Below are positions 3,342 to 43,216 of a stretch of 43,277 nt of DNA, piece by piece. Under the pieces are notes generated by a model that saw nothing but the letters and a program-made list of their open reading frames with translations, was not told the origin of the DNA and ran no database searches. Origin of the DNA: a bacterium (GTDB lineage: Bacteria; Armatimonadota; Zipacnadia; Zipacnadales; UBA11051). The first letter of the stretch is position 1. Each line of letters starts with the position of its first letter. The translations under genes were made by a program, and so were the position numbers. Where the stretch lies: contig JAJFUB010000059.1 of the NCBI GenBank assembly GCA_021372615.1, positions 1 to 43,277 on the forward strand. Direction: 5' to 3'.

Positions 3342-6200
3342 CTAGCGTTTCAGCGTTAGCGGCTGTACCACACTCAACGACTGGCCGGTCAGCGGCGACC
3401 GCGCCGTGATCTCGCACAGGTACCGTCCCGTCGGCACCAGGGTGCCGTGGGTGCTGCGACCGTTCCACAGCACCGTGTTCTGTCCGGCGGCCGCCACCTG
3501 GCCCGAAGCGACTTCGCTGACTACTCGGCCAGCGATGTTGCGCACGCGTACATCCACCGCGGCGTCGGCGCTCAAGGTGTAGCTGAGCATGACGCCCTGG
3601 GCTGTCTGCGCTGCATGCACGCCCGAAACGTTCAGCATGACGTCTGAGCGCGGCTGCACCAGCAACTTCAGCACGCGCTCGGTCACGGCCTCACCCGTGC
3701 GGAAGGTGTAACTCGTCGTCGTGCGCATGTACCGCCGCTGGCCGGCGACCTCATCCACCAGGGTCGCCACCAGGTTCGAGGGCAGCGACTGCAGGGATGG
3801 CCACGTGACCGTGATGGGCGTGTTGATCGCGTTGGTCTTGACCACCAGGTTCCACTGCTGGCTGGTCTGGCTGGCGTCGCGCGTGTCCACCAGGTAGGGC
3901 ATGCCCAGCGCGCTCTCACCGGGATAGAACGCTGAGCGCAGGTAGGTGGCCTCGTCCTTGAGGCCGGCGGGGGGTTGGGGCACGTCATACTCGTCCAGCC
4001 CGCGTGTGGCGCTGGCCCGCGCGGCGATGGACTGCGTCGTCGCGTTCAGCCCCGGCGCCGCCACGTGCAGGTCCACCTTCCAGTTGCCCGGCCCGCCGGT
4101 CTGCGACGAGGCGACGGTCTTCGTCTTCACCGCCGCCGGCGTATACGTGGTCGGCGGCGTGAACATCATGGTCAGGTCCTGGCGCACCAGGATCCAGTAG
4201 CCCATATACGGATCGAGGAAGCTCTCCTCGGGGGTCAGTTGCCAGGTGTACTCCCCAGCGGCCGTGTCGTACGCATAGACGGTCGGCAGGAGCATCTTGC
4301 GCGAGACCGCCTCGTCGAGCGTCCAGTCGCCACCGTCCGGAGCCGATATCCGCACATCCGCCATGCACAGCGACGTGCCGAAGGGATTGCCGATCTGGTT
4401 CCAGCCTGTCTTCAGTTCGACCGCGTAGGTCTGGGTGATGTCCGTCGGCACGGCGTCGTCGGGTAGCGTGATGGTCTCCCGGTTGCGGTTCAGCAGCCAG
4501 TAGCCCTTGCCGGGGGCGATATTCGTCACCGCGGCGTCCGGGAACCATCGGTAGTCGGTGATGGTCGGGTCATAGCGGATCAGCGCGGCCGATCCACCGG
4601 GGATCAGCGACCCGAGGCTGCCAAACACCCACTCGGCGTCGTTGTTGTCGAACTCGTACGGGACGGAGACCATCTCCAGGCCTCTGAGGCTGTCGGGCCA
4701 GGGGTTGAGCACCGGCACCGCCGGGATGCTGATGGTGCGGGTGAGGATCTTCCCTTGCGGCCCCGTGAACCTGATCTGGGCCCGCCCGGGCCGCGCGCTG
4801 GTGGCCAGTACGTCCCACGACAGGCTGTCAATCTCGTTGCGGGTGATGTCGCCAGCCGTCTTGGTCGTCGTCTGGCCCGACGCGAGCTCCAGGCCGGTCG
4901 GCATCCGCACGCGCCCCGTCGCGTCGTACATGGTGCTCGTGCCGAAGTTGTCCATGAACATGGACACCTTGAACGGCGAGTTGCCGTTCTCGTCGGCCAG
5001 GTAGTAGCTCTCGACGGTGTCCGGCGTGGCCGGGTCGTCTCCGTTGCGCTGCACCAACTGGAACGGCGCGTACGCCATCAGCGCATACGGCGGCTCATAG
5101 TCGCCAGCGGAGCTGCCCAGACCGAAGTAGGTCACATAGCGACGCGACTCCCCGGCGTTAAGCTGCTCCGGCTTCCAGTACACTGCGTAGGCCCAGTCCT
5201 CACCGAGGATCGAGGCCCGCGAGTTCGTGGACGGGTAGTACTGCAGGTCGGCCCCGATGTTGCGCATCTGCCCCCACGAGACGGCGTCCGGCATCCCTCC
5301 GGAGGAGTCCGCGATGCCTGGGTCCGTCACCTCGCTGGTGTTCAGCACGCCGCGCACCGCGACGTTCGGCGAAGAGGGATCGTCGTACGCGACCCACCGG
5401 TCCGGAAGCGTGTCATCCGCAACCGAGGCGTCGGGGATGGTTCGCTCGGTGTCGAAGGTAGAGCCGTCCGGCAAAACGATAGCCTGCCCATCGAGCGACG
5501 AACCGCCGCCAAAGGTCGCGTCAATGAGCACCCGCAGGCCGACGGTGTGCCGCGTGGTGTCCTCGTTGGTGACGATGTACTCGAACTGCACCACGTCGCC
5601 GACCACGGTGAGAACCTGCCGCACCCGGATCCACTGGTCGGTCGTGGTGTCGAAGTCCTCCACCGCCGGCACCTGGAACTCGCCGGAGATGTCCCGCACC
5701 CCGACCGTCGGTACCAGGGGCCAGAAGCTGATGAGGTCGGCCCGGTCCGCTTCGTCACCCAGGTCCGCTGCCAGGTAGTGCGGATCGTAGAAGAGCCCCA
5801 CCGTCTCATCCGCCGGGTCCGCGTCTACCGCCACCGTCACTTTGCTGCTGTACTCGTAACCCCAGTCGTCGTCGCTATACTGGTTGGCCACACTCGCGAG
5901 CAGCCTGTTCTCGTCCCCGGTCCGGGTCGGGTTGCCGCCGTACGGAGCCAGGCTTGAAGTCTGGATCTGGAACCGGCCCGCTGGCTGGTACATGTACGTG
6001 CGCGACGTGGTGCCGAACGTCATCAGCGTCGGCAACTCCATGCGCAGCTTGATCATCGCATGGCTGATCGTCGGCACATCCGACGTCACGAACGTCGGTT
6101 GGTTGCCCACCTGCCCCCAGGCGCCCGTGAGCGCACACAGACCTCCGAGCATGAGCGCAAGAGCCGGACGGATCGGGCAGCGGTTTCGGTTGCGGTACAC
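3342..6200 (-). CDS. large secreted protein with shared C-terminal module ending in FlgD-like Ig fold
   Basis: 952 residues with a GTG start. The site GAGAGGAG lies 8 bases upstream, and a signal peptide (PALALMLGGLCALTGAWG) follows. The N-terminal half (about 40-495) is beta-rich and Asp/Thr/Tyr-rich; I do not recognise it. From about residue 500 the protein carries the module shared with its neighbours at 6229 and 12897. The module has a motif of the type GLEMVSVPY, GYW, then GWNQIGNPF, a second GYW, YMRTTTSYTF, and a FlgD-like Ig domain (NIAGRVV..., NTVLWNGRSTHG, VPTGRYLCEITAR) ending LTLKR. The 28-base gap after the S8 protease stop argues for co-transcription. The likely role is a cell-surface or secreted structural or binding protein. 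Confidence 0.6.
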   Translation of the reverse strand: MYRNRNRCPIRPALALMLGGLCALTGAWGQVGNQPTFVTSDVPTISHAMIKLRMELPTLMTFGTTSRTYMYQPAGRFQIQTSSLAPYGGNPTRTGDENRLLASVANQYSDDDWGYEYSSKVTVAVDADPADETVGLFYDPHYLAADLGDEADRADLISFWPLVPTVGVRDISGEFQVPAVEDFDTTTDQWIRVRQVLTVVGDVVQFEYIVTNEDTTRHTVGLRVLIDATFGGGSSLDGQAIVLPDGSTFDTERTIPDASVADDTLPDRWVAYDDPSSPNVAVRGVLNTSEVTDPGIADSSGGMPDAVSWGQMRNIGADLQYYPSTNSRASILGEDWAYAVYWKPEQLNAGESRRYVTYFGLGSSAGDYEPPYALMAYAPFQLVQRNGDDPATPDTVESYYLADENGNSPFKVSMFMDNFGTSTMYDATGRVRMPTGLELASGQTTTKTAGDITRNEIDSLSWDVLATSARPGRAQIRFTGPQGKILTRTISIPAVPVLNPWPDSLRGLEMVSVPYEFDNNDAEWVFGSLGSLIPGGSAALIRYDPTITDYRWFPDAAVTNIAPGKGYWLLNRNRETITLPDDAVPTDITQTYAVELKTGWNQIGNPFGTSLCMADVRISAPDGGDWTLDEAVSRKMLLPTVYAYDTAAGEYTWQLTPEESFLDPYMGYWILVRQDLTMMFTPPTTYTPAAVKTKTVASSQTGGPGNWKVDLHVAAPGLNATTQSIAARASATRGLDEYDVPQPPAGLKDEATYLRSAFYPGESALGMPYLVDTRDASQTSQQWNLVVKTNAINTPITVTWPSLQSLPSNLVATLVDEVAGQRRYMRTTTSYTFRTGEAVTERVLKLLVQPRSDVMLNVSGVHAAQTAQGVMLSYTLSADAAVDVRVRNIAGRVVSEVASGQVAAAGQNTVLWNGRSTHGTLVPTGRYLCEITARSPLTGQSLSVVQPLTLKR

Positions 6201-38642: not shown

Positions 38643-40181
38643 ATGCCCTACGTCCTCGGTCTCGACTCCGGCACCCAGAGCCTGCGCGCGGTCATCGCCG
38701 ACCTCAGCGGCGCGATTGTCGCCTCGGCCACGCGCGCCTATCCCATTGACTTCCCCCATGTGTCCTGGGCGGAGCAGAACGCCGAGGACTGGTGGGCGGC
38801 AGCCAAGCAGATCGTCCCCGAGGCGCTGGCCGCCGCGGGCCTGACCGGCGACGACATCGCCGGCATCAGCGTGGACGGCACCGCCTGCACCGTCATCGCC
38901 TGCAAGCGCGACAGCACGCCCCTGCGCCCCGTCATCCTGTGGATGGACCAGCGCGCCTACGACCAGGCCTGCCGCGTCACGGCCACAAAGGACCCGATCC
39001 TCAAGTACGTGAGCTGGCAGGAGTCGCCGGAGTGGATGATCCCCAAGGCCCTGTGGCTGCGCGAGAACGAGCCTGCGGTCTACGAGCAGGCTGATCTGAT
39101 CATCGAGGGCGTGGACTGGCTCATGTACCGCTTGACGGGCAACTGGGCCGCTTCGCTGAACAACGTCACGGCCAAGTGGAACTACGCCGCCCCGGCGGGC
39201 GGCTGGCCCGACAGCCTGCTGGACGCACTCGGCTTCAGCGAGATCAAGGACAAGTGGCCGACCACGGTGCTGCCGATGGGCGAGTTGGCCGGGGAGCTGA
39301 CGCGGACCGCCGCCGAGGAGCTGGGCCTCAAGCCCGGCATCCCCGTGGCCGAGGGTGGCATTGACGCCTACTGCGGCATGCTGGGGCTGGGCGTCGTCCG
39401 CCCCAACCGCATGGCGCTGGTCATGGGCACCTCCACCTGCCACGAGGCGCTCTGTGCCGAGGGCCTCTTCGACTCGCATGTCTGGGGGCCGTACCCGGAC
39501 GCCCTGCTGCCGGGAACATGGGTGCTGGAAGGCGGGCAGACCGCCACCGGGGCTATCGTGACATGGCTCGCGGACAACTTCGGCTACCGCGAGCAGGTCG
39601 AGGCCGAGCACAGGGGCGTGGACCGCTTCACCGTGCTGGATGAGAAGGCGGCGGCCGTGCCGCCGGGCGCGGAGGGCCTGACGCTGCTGGACTACTGGCA
39701 GGGGAACCGCACGCCGGTCCGCGATCCGCTGGCCCGGGGCGCCGTCTGGGGCCTGAGCCTCAAGCACGGGATCGGCCACCTGCTGCGCGCCGTCTACGAG
39801 GGCACGGCCATGGGCAGCCGGCACATCCAGGAGGACCTGCGGGCCGCCGGCTTTGCGCCCGACGGCGTGTATGCCTGCGGCGGCGGCACGCGCAGCGCCC
39901 TGTGGCTGCAGATCCACGCCGACGCCTCGGGCGTGCCGATCTACCTGACCGAGGAGCCCGAAGCCACGGCGGTGGGTACAGCGATCCTCGCCGCCACCGG
40001 GGCCGGTTTCTTCGGCAGCCTCGTCGAGGCCGCCGACGCCATGGTGAAGGTCTCCCGCGAGATTCCCCCGGACCCGAGCACGAAGGACTTCTACGACGCC
40101 CAGTTCGACCGCTACGTCCGGACCTACCCGGCATTGAAGGACATGATGCACGAGACCGCGGCGGAACAGAAAGCGGATTGA
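38643..40181 (+). CDS. FGGY-family carbohydrate kinase (ribulokinase-like)
   Basis: 512 residues from the ATG with AGGAG 6 bases upstream; an in-frame GTG at 38598 lacks this. The N-terminal ATPase half starts YVLGLDSGTQSLRAVIADL (phosphate-1 loop). The catalytic Asp is in AEGGIDAYCGMLG, and the FGGY signature region shows GNRTPVRDPLARG. The adenosine-binding end includes ACGGGTRSALWLQIHAD and EPEATAVGTAILA. FGGY kinases phosphorylate sugars or polyols such as ribulose, xylulose or glycerol. The MGTSTCHE segment favours ribulokinase or D-ribulokinase-like members, but the substrate cannot be set from sequence alone. No isomerase, epimerase or sugar transporter is nearby. Confidence 0.88.
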   Translation: MPYVLGLDSGTQSLRAVIADLSGAIVASATRAYPIDFPHVSWAEQNAEDWWAAAKQIVPEALAAAGLTGDDIAGISVDGTACTVIACKRDSTPLRPVILWMDQRAYDQACRVTATKDPILKYVSWQESPEWMIPKALWLRENEPAVYEQADLIIEGVDWLMYRLTGNWAASLNNVTAKWNYAAPAGGWPDSLLDALGFSEIKDKWPTTVLPMGELAGELTRTAAEELGLKPGIPVAEGGIDAYCGMLGLGVVRPNRMALVMGTSTCHEALCAEGLFDSHVWGPYPDALLPGTWVLEGGQTATGAIVTWLADNFGYREQVEAEHRGVDRFTVLDEKAAAVPPGAEGLTLLDYWQGNRTPVRDPLARGAVWGLSLKHGIGHLLRAVYEGTAMGSRHIQEDLRAAGFAPDGVYACGGGTRSALWLQIHADASGVPIYLTEEPEATAVGTAILAATGAGFFGSLVEAADAMVKVSREIPPDPSTKDFYDAQFDRYVRTYPALKDMMHETAAEQKAD

Positions 40182-40347
40182 CGACGTTGCAGAGGGAGAG
40201 TAGAATGCCGTCGCCGCCCCCCGGGGACCTCTGCGACTGTGGGTCGTAGGGGCGGGGTCTGCGGCAGGGAAGGACCGCCCGCGCGCATCGCTGTTACGCC
40301 CGGGCAGCGCCCAAAGGACTTATGGACTCATTACCTGGCAGTACCAA
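40182..40347 (+). other. intergenic DNA before the metal-transport leader
   Basis: About 165 bases after the sugar kinase. It has GC-rich stretches and then an AT-richer patch around 40318-40350, where a promoter for the next operon would be expected. I see no clear -35/-10 pair. Confidence 0.35.
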
Positions 40348-40487
40348 TCTAGAACCCGCTAGACGCGCTGTCGTGCGGATTCATCGGAGTTCCCCCCGCA
40401 GGGAGGTAGGCCTGGTGCTCGCGTAGCACCGCCTGCCTTCATGCTGTACCCCTGTGGCCCACCCCGGTGAATCCGAGGTGGGCCTTT
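40348..40487 (+). promoter_or_regulatory. structured leader with terminator-like hairpin upstream of the metal-transport operon
   Basis: Four stems follow one another: TCTAG/CTAGA (40348-40363), TGCGG/CCGCA (40374-40400), GGTAGGC/GCCTGCC enclosing GGTGCT/AGCACC (40405-40437), and GGCCCACC/GGTGGGCC with an inner CGG/CCG (40456-40484), then TTT. The last stem resembles an attenuator. The layout suggests a metal-responsive leader, but I could not match it by eye to the M-box or yybP-ykoY consensus. Confidence 0.4.
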
Positions 40488-40622
40488 CGCTGTCCCCCGG
40501 CTCCTCTGGCCGCGGTAGGCCCCCGCTCTCTGACAGATTGCGGCTTCGCACCCGGACGTCCCGGCACCATCGCCGGCCGGCACGGGGTCGGAACCGTCGT
40601 CGCGGCTGAAAGGAGGACGACC

Positions 40623-41951
40623 ATGGTCTTCTTCGCCGAAGCCTACTTCGCCGGCCTGGTCCGCGAGGTGCTCTATGACGCCCAGGGCAAGCCCCTCGGG
40701 CGCATCGTGGACCTGGTCATCGAGCCCCGTGAGCGCTATCCGGTCGTGACCAAGGTCGTCGTGCAGCCCCCGCACGGCGGCGAGCGGCTCATCCTGCCCT
40801 GGCACTTGATCCGCTCCGCCTCCTATGAGGGCTTCCGCCTGGCCGGCGCGCTGGATCACCTCCCCCGCTACGACATTGACGACAACGAAGTCAGCGTCGC
40901 CGATCGCATCCTGGACCGACAGATTGTGGACATCTCCGGCCAGCGCGTCGTGCGGGTCAATGACCTGAAGTTCGGCGGCATCGGCAATGACGTGCTGCTG
41001 ACGCACGTGGATGTGGGCACACGCGGCTTGCTGCGCCGCATGAACTGGGAGCACTTCACCCTCGGCGTGTGTCGCCTGCTGCACATCCGCCTGCCCGAGC
41101 GCCTGATCGCCTGGGAGCATGTCCAGCTCCCGCACGAGGGCGACGAACTGCATGTGGACGAGAGCCGCGAGGCCCTGCGCACGATGCAACCGGCCGACCT
41201 GGCCGACATCGCCGAGGCCCTGCGCGCCCCCGAGCGCGCGGCCCTGCTGGGCGGCATTGACGAGGACGTCGCCGCCGATGCCCTGCAGGAGATGGAGCCG
41301 GACCTGCAGGTATCCGTTGTCAACGAGCTGACCGACGAGCAGGCCAGCGACATCATCGAGGAGATGGAGCCCGACGCCGGCGCGGACCTGCTGGCCGACC
41401 TGTCCGAGGAGCGCGCCGCGAAGATCCTCGAGTTGATGGAGCCCGAGGAAGCCGCCGACCTGCGAACCCTCATGCGCTACCATCCCGACTCCGCCGGTGG
41501 CCTGATGACCCTGGAGTACGTGGCCGTGCAGGAGAGCATGACGGTGCGCGAGGCCATGCGGAAGCTGCGCGAGGAGGCCCAGGAGATCGAGATCGTCTAC
41601 TATGTCTATGTCCTGGATGAGCACGACCATCTGACGGGCGTGATGTCGCTGCGCGACCTCATCATCGCGTCCGGGGACGCGACTGTCGGCGAGACCATGG
41701 AGCGCAACGTCGTCCGCGTCCACGTGGACACCGACCAGCAGGACATCGCTCACACCGTGGCCCACTACAACCTCCTGGCCGTGCCGGTGGTGGATGATGA
41801 CAACCGCCTGCTGGGCATGGTCACGGTGGATGACGCCATTGACGCCGTCGTGCCGACCGCCTGGAAGAAGCGCATTCCCAAGGTCTTCGGCCACAGCGTC
41901 GCGCCGTCCGAACGGGCGGCTCATCCCGCACCGCCCGGCCCACGCTCATGA
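40623..41951 (+). CDS. PRC-barrel / MgtE_N / CBS-pair protein, soluble Mg2+-sensor-like partner of an NRAMP transporter
   Basis: 442 residues, no transmembrane segment. AAAGGAGG lies 6 bases before the ATG. PRC-barrel-like strands (about 5-80; LVREVLYDAQGKPLGRIVDLVIEPRE) and a second such stretch (about 95-165) come first. An MgtE_N domain of acidic helical repeats follows (about 180-290; MQPADLADIAEAL, MEPDLQVSVVNELTDEQASDIIEEM). The junction LMRYHPDSAGGLMTLEYVAV is typical of MgtE, and a CBS pair comes next (about 300-425). In MgtE these two domains sense Mg2+ and gate the attached channel; here the MgtE membrane domain is missing. The gene overlaps the transporter gene by 4 bases (ATGA), so the two proteins probably work together. 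Confidence 0.9.
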   Translation: MVFFAEAYFAGLVREVLYDAQGKPLGRIVDLVIEPRERYPVVTKVVVQPPHGGERLILPWHLIRSASYEGFRLAGALDHLPRYDIDDNEVSVADRILDRQIVDISGQRVVRVNDLKFGGIGNDVLLTHVDVGTRGLLRRMNWEHFTLGVCRLLHIRLPERLIAWEHVQLPHEGDELHVDESREALRTMQPADLADIAEALRAPERAALLGGIDEDVAADALQEMEPDLQVSVVNELTDEQASDIIEEMEPDAGADLLADLSEERAAKILELMEPEEAADLRTLMRYHPDSAGGLMTLEYVAVQESMTVREAMRKLREEAQEIEIVYYVYVLDEHDHLTGVMSLRDLIIASGDATVGETMERNVVRVHVDTDQQDIAHTVAHYNLLAVPVVDDDNRLLGMVTVDDAIDAVVPTAWKKRIPKVFGHSVAPSERAAHPAPPGPRS

Positions 41952-43216
41952 AGCTCATCGCCCGCCGCCTCAAGTCGCGCTGGGCCTCGGTGGCGCTGCT
42001 GCTGGCGATCATCGGGCCCGGCATCATCACCGCCAACGTGGACAATGACGCCGGCGGCATCACCACGTACTCGCTGGCCGGGGGCAACTTCGGCTACCGC
42101 CTGCTGTGGGTCCTGATCCCCGTCACCGTCGCTCTCGTCATCATCCAGGAGATGTGCGCCCGCATGGGCGCCATCACCGGCAAGGGTCTCTCGGACTTGA
42201 TCCGCGAGCGTTTCGGCCTGCGCCTGACCTTCTGGGTCATGCTGGGGGTGGCGCTGAGCAACCTGACGAACACCATGGCCGAATTCGCCGGCGTCGCCTC
42301 GGCGTCCGAGATCTTCGGCCTGTCGCGCTACATCGCCGTGCCCCTGGCCGGGATCGCGGTGTGGTTCATCGTCGTCAAGGGGTCGTACCGGAGGGTTGAG
42401 AAGGTCTTCCTGGTGGCCTGCACGTTCTACGTCTCGTATATCCTGTCGGGCTTCATGGCCCGGCCGGACTGGGCGGAGATGGGCCGGCAGATCATCCACC
42501 CGACGCTCACCTTCGACGGCCCCACGATCATGATGGCGATCGGCATCGTCGGCACCACCATCGCCCCCTGGATGCAGTTCTACCAGCAAGCCTCCGTCGT
42601 GGACAAGGGCATCCGCGCCCGGGACTACAGGTTCACGGTGATTGATGTCGTCGTCGGCTGCGCCGTGGCGGTCGCCACCTGTTTCTTCATCGTCGCCACC
42701 TGCGCCGCCACGATCTTCCACTCCGGCCAGCACGTGACGACGGTCGAGGCGGCGGCGCAGGCGCTCCGGCCGCTGGCCGGCCCCTACTGTGCCGGGCTCT
42801 TTGCCTTCGGTCTGCTGAACGCCTCGCTGTTTGCGGCCTCGATCCTGCCGCTGAGCACGACCTACCTGGTGTGCGAGGGGATGGGCTGGGAGCGGGGCGT
42901 GAATCGCAGCTTCGCGGAGGCGCCGGAGTTCTACTCGCTGTACACGGGCATGATCGTCGTCGGCGCGGGGATTGTGCTGCTGCCACGGGCGCCGCTGCTG
43001 ACCATCATGTACCTGTCCCAGGTCCTCAACGGCATCCTGCTGCCGGCGGTGCTGATCTTCATCCTCATCCTCATCAACGACCGCAGGCTCATGGGGGAGT
43101 ACCGCAACAACCGCTTCTACAACGCCGTCTCGATCACCACGGTCGTCATCATGACCGGGCTGACGGTGCTACTGGCGCTGACAACGGTCTGGCCGGGGCT
43201 GCTGGGCGGGGGCTAG
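41948..43216 (+). CDS. NRAMP (SLC11) fold divalent-metal transporter, predicted Mg2+-permeable
   Basis: 422 residues with about 11 transmembrane helices. Helix 1 reads LLAIIGPGIITANVDNDAGG: the NRAMP frame GPGxxxA is kept, but the DPGN metal-binding motif has become DAGG. Helix 6 reads IVGTTIAPWMQFYQQASVVD, where classical NRAMP proteins have a motif of the form MPHN. The Met that favours Mn2+/Fe2+ over alkaline-earth ions is thus Ala, and the His is Trp. By published NRAMP work (Met-to-Ala admits Ca2+/Mg2+; NRAMP-related Mg2+ transporters lack that Met), Mg2+ is a likely substrate (inference). Translational coupling to a MgtE-type Mg2+-sensor protein supports this. It is probably in the inner membrane and driven by the membrane potential or by protons. 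Confidence 0.88.
   Translation: MKLIARRLKSRWASVALLLAIIGPGIITANVDNDAGGITTYSLAGGNFGYRLLWVLIPVTVALVIIQEMCARMGAITGKGLSDLIRERFGLRLTFWVMLGVALSNLTNTMAEFAGVASASEIFGLSRYIAVPLAGIAVWFIVVKGSYRRVEKVFLVACTFYVSYILSGFMARPDWAEMGRQIIHPTLTFDGPTIMMAIGIVGTTIAPWMQFYQQASVVDKGIRARDYRFTVIDVVVGCAVAVATCFFIVATCAATIFHSGQHVTTVEAAAQALRPLAGPYCAGLFAFGLLNASLFAASILPLSTTYLVCEGMGWERGVNRSFAEAPEFYSLYTGMIVVGAGIVLLPRAPLLTIMYLSQVLNGILLPAVLIFILILINDRRLMGEYRNNRFYNAVSITTVVIMTGLTVLLALTTVWPGLLGGG

Follow-up and report, generated by a model that had tools for sequence, protein, structure and literature searches.

The N domain and the paired CBS domains of MgtE bind Mg2+ and close the channel; sensitivity to Co2+ and Ni2+ serves as a readout of lost feedback in MgtE. 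In the T. thermophilus protein, the Mg2+ ligands that have been tested are E258 (site Mg2), D259 (Mg3), D91 and D247 (Mg4), D226 and D250 (Mg5), D95 (Mg6) and E59 (Mg7). A homologue of this cytoplasmic part has also been described beside a different kind of transporter: Shin et al. (2014; PMC4072509) name NrmT, state that most nrmT genes adjoin a gene for a homologue of the MgtE N-terminal cytoplasmic domain, and speculate that this MgtE-like protein provides cytoplasmic feedback or works as a chaperone. According to the same paper, NrmT of C. acetobutylicum gave Mg2+ rescue without the MgtE-like gene, which implies that this gene is not needed for transport, and NrmT of A. capsulatum restored Mn2+ uptake in full and Mg2+ only at low millimolar concentrations. 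Co-expression of the A. capsulatum MgtE-like protein did not improve the Mg2+ rescue (PMC4072509), a point against the functional pairing, although no improvement is to be expected from an inhibitor. The M-box riboswitch is reported there for a subset of NRMT members and as absent from A. capsulatum, and is not a defining feature. The function of the MgtE-like gene was left open in 2014, and no later test of the feedback idea was found in the openly licensed literature searched.

The transporter side of the partnership was characterised later, when the NRMT clade was defined by the motifs DxxG in helix 1 and TxxA/T in helix 6 (Ramanadane et al., 2022; PMC8806188). EleNRMT transports Mg2+ and Mn2+ but not Ca2+, uncoupled from H+; a classical NRAMP with the swapped site gained no Mg2+ transport in the same study, so the NRMT motif by itself is no proof of Mg2+ transport.

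The window, that is, the whole stretch of 43,277 nucleotides analysed here, contains two plus-strand genes that overlap by 4 nt (ATGA, 41948-41951). The first encodes a soluble protein (hereafter the sensor); its ATG at 40623 is preceded by AAGGAGG at 40610-40616 and its TGA occupies 41949-41951, and the ATG of the second, an NRAMP-family gene, lies at 41948 within this stop codon region (Table 1). The pair is a further example of the partnership of Shin et al. (2014; PMC4072509), and the central idea, that the sensor feeds back on the NRMT, has already been published there as a hypothesis, so that neither the pairing nor the feedback idea put forward in a sequence-only reading of this DNA is new.

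Table 1. Features of the sensor-NRMT locus, in window positions.
Feature	Coordinates	Strand	Basis
Sigma-70-like promoter, TTGACG-17-TAGAAT	40178..40206	+	10/12 consensus bases; shuffles mean 0.0
Conserved leader RNA candidate, ~176 nt, upstream of sensor gene	40315..40490	+	Covariance model; not in Rfam
Terminator-like hairpin, GGCCCACC...GGTGGGCC then TTT	40456..40487	+	Sequence; both-side pair changes in seven leaders
Sensor gene, 442 aa, encoding a soluble protein (PRC/PRC-like/MgtE_N/CBS-CBS)	40623..41951	+	ORF, Pfam, structure model
PRC barrel 1, residues 1-85	40623..40877	+	Pfam PRC 18-61; model pLDDT 84-93
PRC-like domain 2, residues 92-165	40896..41117	+	Conservation, model; 11/33 invariant family columns
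MgtE_N domain, residues 188-289	41184..41489	+	Pfam; D91, D95 kept, E59 = Asp
CBS pair, residues 290-410	41490..41852	+	Pfam, alignment; D247, D250 kept, D226 = Asn, F227 = Leu
Short basic low-confidence C-terminal tail, where MgtE has the plug helix	41853..41948	+	Alignment, model
NRMT-type NRAMP transporter gene, 422 aa	41948..43216	+	ORF, Pfam, sequence and fold comparison
DAGG, helix 1 metal-site motif (DxxG)	42047..42058	+	Sequence, alignment, published motif
APWM, metal-site motif of helix 6, with Ala where classical NRAMPs have Met	42563..42574	+	Sequence, alignment, published motif

The transporter is a member of the NRMT class. It matches Pfam Nramp with an E-value of 5e-101, and among solved relatives it scores best against EleNRMT (378 bits, versus 95 bits for DraNramp), which is also the best match of its structural model (pLDDT 79.5, pTM 0.82; TM 0.85 to 7qia). 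Column alignment with both proteins places its metal site at D34-A-G-G37 and T203-T-I-A206-P-W-M209; the NRMT signature is therefore present (DAGG in helix 1, T203-T-I-A206 in helix 6), and the classical NRAMP/MntH signature, DPGN with a helix 6 Met, is replaced by DAGG and Ala. The open reading frames, Pfam and the alignment thus bear out what the sequence-only reading had seen, namely DAGG for DPGN, Ala-Pro-Trp-Met for Met-Pro-His-Asn and the gene overlap. Its description of the site as Mg2+-type is correct as a statement of class, and by analogy the ion would be Mg2+; its further step to a Mg2+ transporter holds as far as the NRMT class goes, but reading it as Mg2+-only is unsafe, the A. 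capsulatum relative having behaved mainly as a Mn2+ transporter. The change at the metal site, too, had already been described (Ramanadane et al., 2022; PMC8806188). The genome to which the window belongs encodes a second NRAMP with a classical DPGN/MPHN site (L001), one CorA, and no MgtE_N protein besides the sensor; given CorA and the classical NRAMP, the ion of the window NRMT is not forced. Certain Nitrospirota NRMTs (L009-L012, L140) have Thr at the helix 6 Met position, DASG in helix 1 and Asn for the helix 3 Glu.

The sensor (442 residues) has no predicted membrane helices and consists of a PRC barrel, a PRC-like domain, MgtE_N and two CBS domains. Pfam finds MgtE_N at residues 188-289 (E 1e-25), CBS twice, and PRC (PF05239) at 18-61 with 23.1 bits against a cut-off of 21.2; the second PRC-like barrel (approximately residues 95-165) is below Pfam's reach, appears as a beta domain in the model and shows the highest conservation within the family. 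Residues 182-410 match the cytosolic domain of MgtE (2yvy) with a TM of 0.83 to the target and 40% identity over 230 residues; the relation to MgtE that had been proposed for these modules is supported. The AlphaFold model has a mean pLDDT of 81 and a pTM of 0.50, which leaves the placement of the domains relative to each other unsure. Among the features of the MgtE channel, MgtE_N and CBS are present, and the plug helix and the transmembrane channel domain are absent; the protein ends about 32 residues past the CBS pair, in a basic low-confidence tail. A sensor that lacks the plug helix which closes MgtE cannot gate in the way that MgtE does. PRC-like domain 2 is the best candidate for a docking surface, since it has the highest density of columns invariant across the family (11/33 in about 70 residues).

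In an alignment of 90 rows of free sensors, a few of which duplicate a single locus, D95 is conserved in 88/90, D247 in 78/90, D91 in 73/90 and E59, as D or E, in 84/90. D226 is Asn in 62/90 rows, the window sensor included, and where the plug-helix residues would follow D250 there is instead a short tail, in many cases basic; the ATP-contact positions Y170 and R187 are mostly kept. Proteins in which the same module is fused to an MgtE channel retain the acidic plug region along with D91, D95 and D247, and D226 is missing there too. The predicted Mg2+ sites that bridge the N domain and the CBS pair are thus retained in the sensor and those of the plug are lost, from which it follows that the sensor may close upon itself with Mg2+ and would have to relay the signal in another way.

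Upstream, the promoter-like site overlaps the end of a xylulokinase-like gene, and the leader candidate is found in the same place in five close relatives (L004, L005, L006, L007 and L234). A covariance model built from the five relatives, window excluded, finds the leader as its sole match in 43 kb (24.3 bits, E 1.4e-5). The pattern scan did not list the hairpin because of its short T-run in the window. The leader may be a metal-responsive attenuator. An Rfam scan of the window at E<=1 returned nothing except a chance mir match away from the leader, with no match to the M-box riboswitch (RF00380); when an M-box or other Rfam riboswitch was considered for six related loci, matches at E<=5 were of the chance type. 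A leader shared with the mgtE gene in a genome of the same family (L128) was also considered and found weak (nhmmer E 0.027, blastn E 0.006, covariance model E 0.47), the likeness being suggestive only, and the leader was searched for and not found upstream of corA or of the classical NRAMP gene. In L004, a long near-perfect palindrome (3361-3461) triggers spurious Rfam microRNA matches.

The distribution of the two genes speaks for a functional link. An independent scan of the collection with the sensor as query retrieved 20 loci with PRC-containing sensors, and in 18 of them an NRMT gene lies close downstream (17 adjacent, one approximately 2.8 kb apart); the linkage is thus beyond chance. 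No natural sensor-NRMT fusion was found among the loci examined, and the extended reading frames of L177, L205 and L218, considered as candidates, proved to be either neighbouring but distinct genes or read-through in another frame.

The survey with an NRMT profile and a sensor profile covered 378 genomes (151 Armatimonadota, 119 Acidobacteriota and 108 Nitrospirota). In Armatimonadota, 54 genomes have both genes, 2 the NRMT only, 5 the sensor only and 90 neither (Fisher p 2e-32, a value that, like the others given here, overstates independence, because the counts are taken over related species with shared ancestry included). The pair is unlinked in 25 of these 54 genomes, so the association is more than operon inheritance. 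In Acidobacteriota the corresponding numbers are 35, 0, 0 and 84 with ten lower-scoring NRMTs counted (330-357 bits; they have the site DAGG and T-[AT]-P-W and the opposite gene order), and 25, 0, 10 and 84 in the strict table that leaves them out; this strict table has to be weighed too, since the 325-bit NRMT line was set after the pairing had been seen and an Armatimonadota NRAMP tier of similar score (DAGA/APWQ) occurs in four genomes without a sensor belonging to it. In Nitrospirota the numbers are 38, 0, 3 and 67, and of the three sensor-only genomes two have partial matches, one of them at a contig start, while in the third the sensor adjoins a second-tier NRMT. For the three phyla together, a sensor is present in 127/129 genomes with an NRMT (54/56, 35/35 and 38/38, respectively) and in 8/249 of those with neither a first-tier nor a paired second-tier NRMT, several of the eight being incomplete or having the sensor at a contig end. 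In a sample of Bacillota, within which Clostridia were not established, 2/245 genomes have an NRMT, with the sensor adjacent in both. The functional link put forward in the sequence-only reading is therefore supported by a near one-to-one co-occurrence in three phyla.

Some arrangements depart from that of the window. The second-tier NRMTs of Acidobacteriota (L170-L174, L177-L185) have the sensor downstream, in reversed order. Two Acidobacteriales loci (L018, L019) have sensor genes among uppS, cdsA and dxr, without an adjacent NRMT; the genome of L018 has an NRMT elsewhere, and the search of that of L019 gave only NRAMP-like genes of lower score.

Where the NRMT and the sensor occur, the ordinary MgtE channel tends to be replaced. 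Defined as an MgtE_N/CBS match without the PRC part, with the channel domain checked on about two dozen loci, MgtE is found in 15/129 NRMT genomes versus 162/249 others (12/56 versus 58/95 in Armatimonadota, 3/35 versus 66/84 in Acidobacteriota and 0/38 versus 38/70 in Nitrospirota). CorA is unrelated to the NRMT in Armatimonadota (35/56 versus 58/95), and CorA and MgtE are both missing from 20 of the 56 genomes with an NRMT in that phylum. The presence of a classical NRAMP is not clearly associated with that of the sensor (p 0.17 in Armatimonadota, 0.06 in Acidobacteriota), and no case of a sensor paired with a DPGN/Met NRAMP alone was seen in the surveyed genomes, so that the wide pairing with classical transporters that would have spoken against the link was not found; in L193 a sensor-NRMT pair is followed, at a distance of about 1 kb, by a classical NRAMP. 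Other NRAMP-like clades of Armatimonadota, with DAGA/APWQ (L078-L085) or mostly DPSG/SPY sites (L086-L094), are unpaired with the sensor. An MgtE channel gene lies immediately downstream of an NRAMP-like gene in L089 and immediately upstream of a free PRC sensor in L123, in whose incomplete genome no NRMT was found. Tandem divergent MgtE gene pairs in L026 (1437-4177) and L027 (3562-6302) possibly encode heteromeric channel subunits.

Taken together, the survey results raise the likelihood of the feedback model, and we lean towards a pair formed by an NRMT importer (of Mg2+, with Mn2+ as the alternative) and a Mg2+-responsive feedback regulator acting in trans. Here we infer physical contact, inhibition, the ion sensed, gating and docking through the PRC part. 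When the cytosol is replete, the N domain and CBS pair of the sensor would bind Mg2+; the sensor would then act in trans on the NRMT, without an MgtE-style plug helix entering the pore, probably making contact at the cytoplasmic face through PRC-like domain 2 and/or the basic tail, and the Mg2+-bound form would lower transport. Against this feedback reading, D226 of site Mg5 is Asn in most sensors, and F227, which stacks on ATP, is Leu in the window sensor.

The main rival concerns the ion: the NRMTs of the window's clade may be mainly Mn2+ importers, and the MgtE-like protein may sense Mn2+ or the balance of Mn2+ and Mg2+. EleNRMT also carries Mn2+, the window's genome has a CorA, and the NrmT of A. 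capsulatum, which likewise has an MgtE-like gene next to it, acted as a Mn2+ transporter (PMC4072509). This reading is nevertheless unlikely: a classical NRAMP (L001) is encoded elsewhere in the same genome, in three phyla the genomes with the pair tend not to have the MgtE Mg2+ channel, and those 20 Armatimonadota NRMT genomes have no CorA or MgtE. Rather less probable still is that the MgtE-like protein, instead of being a Mg2+ feedback gate, helps the NRMT to assemble, supplies it with metal as a chaperone or senses adenylates on its behalf. CBS pairs often bind adenylates, two ATP-contact positions are mostly kept, and a chaperone role is among those offered by Shin et al. (PMC4072509); however, F227, which MgtE needs for ATP binding, has been lost in the window sensor, NrmT transports without its partner in the same paper, and the acidic ligands D95, D247 and D91 are among the best-kept positions. 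That the sensor has additional targets and its linkage to the NRMT is co-regulation only, as the unlinked pairs, the two sensors among uppS/cdsA/dxr and the fusion of the module to an MgtE channel might suggest, is very improbable given how rarely it is kept in NRMT-less genomes, several of these few being incomplete or contig-end cases.

Returning to the feedback model, the sensor need not be a fragment recently cut from a channel. In a tree of MgtE_N/CBS sequences, free sensors, PRC-MgtE fusions and MgtE channels cluster, with 4 changes versus 28 for shuffled labels, and the fusions group together near the MgtE group (the tree is unrooted and its deep forks are weak). A recent excision from an MgtE was considered and rejected on this unrooted tree, which needs few changes and has weak deep branches. 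Judged from these sequences, the split from MgtE is old and the sensor is an old cross-phylum family; the earlier proposal that an MgtE sensor had been separated from its channel is thus too simple, the family being plug-less and old and the split one that may have run in either direction. The fusions, from six loci (L117, L118, L119, L120, L121 and L122), are approximately 570-620 aa long, and that of L117 is encoded immediately upstream of an NRMT gene.

It is an even question whether the wider picture holds, in which a plug-less, channel-less Mg2+ sensor is a separate inhibitory subunit of the LeuT-type NRMT, the two form a two-piece alternative to MgtE in several phyla, and an undescribed leader RNA acts as transcription attenuator of the operon in the window's lineage. 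That a single sensing module has come to regulate transporters with two unrelated folds is a strong prediction, to which the unlinked co-occurrence and the avoidance of MgtE genomes have raised what was a hint from gene neighbourhood. For annotation, such genes should not be named "magnesium transporter MgtE" or "manganese transporter MntH".

Compared with known systems, the free sensor shares with the MgtE channel of T. thermophilus (2yvx/2zy9) the N domain and CBS pair, at the identity given above, and differs from it in lacking the channel domain and plug helix and in having two extra PRC domains. The transporter has the DAGG and TIAPWM site, approximately 45% identity and the same fold as EleNRMT of Eggerthella lenta (PDB 7qia), a protein of another organism for which transport was measured, whereas that of the window is known from sequence and model. 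The PRC-MgtE_N-CBS-MgtE channel proteins of some Armatimonadota contain the same PRC and MgtE_N/CBS module and still carry the channel and its acidic plug region. In the published NrmT operons (Shin et al., 2014; PMC4072509; C. acetobutylicum Ca_c0685 and A. capsulatum Acp2976-Acp2977), the NRMT gene is usually downstream of the MgtE-like gene, as here, but the window has an unrelated leader and no M-box. The PRC domains, the retained Mg2+ ligands, the co-occurrence and the avoidance of MgtE are not described in the accessible text of that paper. What is added here is the near one-to-one co-occurrence of NRMT and sensor in three phyla, also when unlinked, the avoidance of MgtE genomes by both, the lack of any sensor whose sole NRAMP partner is of the DPGN/Met type, a leader that ends in a terminator-like hairpin, and the pattern of ligand retention, in which the sensor family displays the Mg2+ sites of MgtE without its plug helix.
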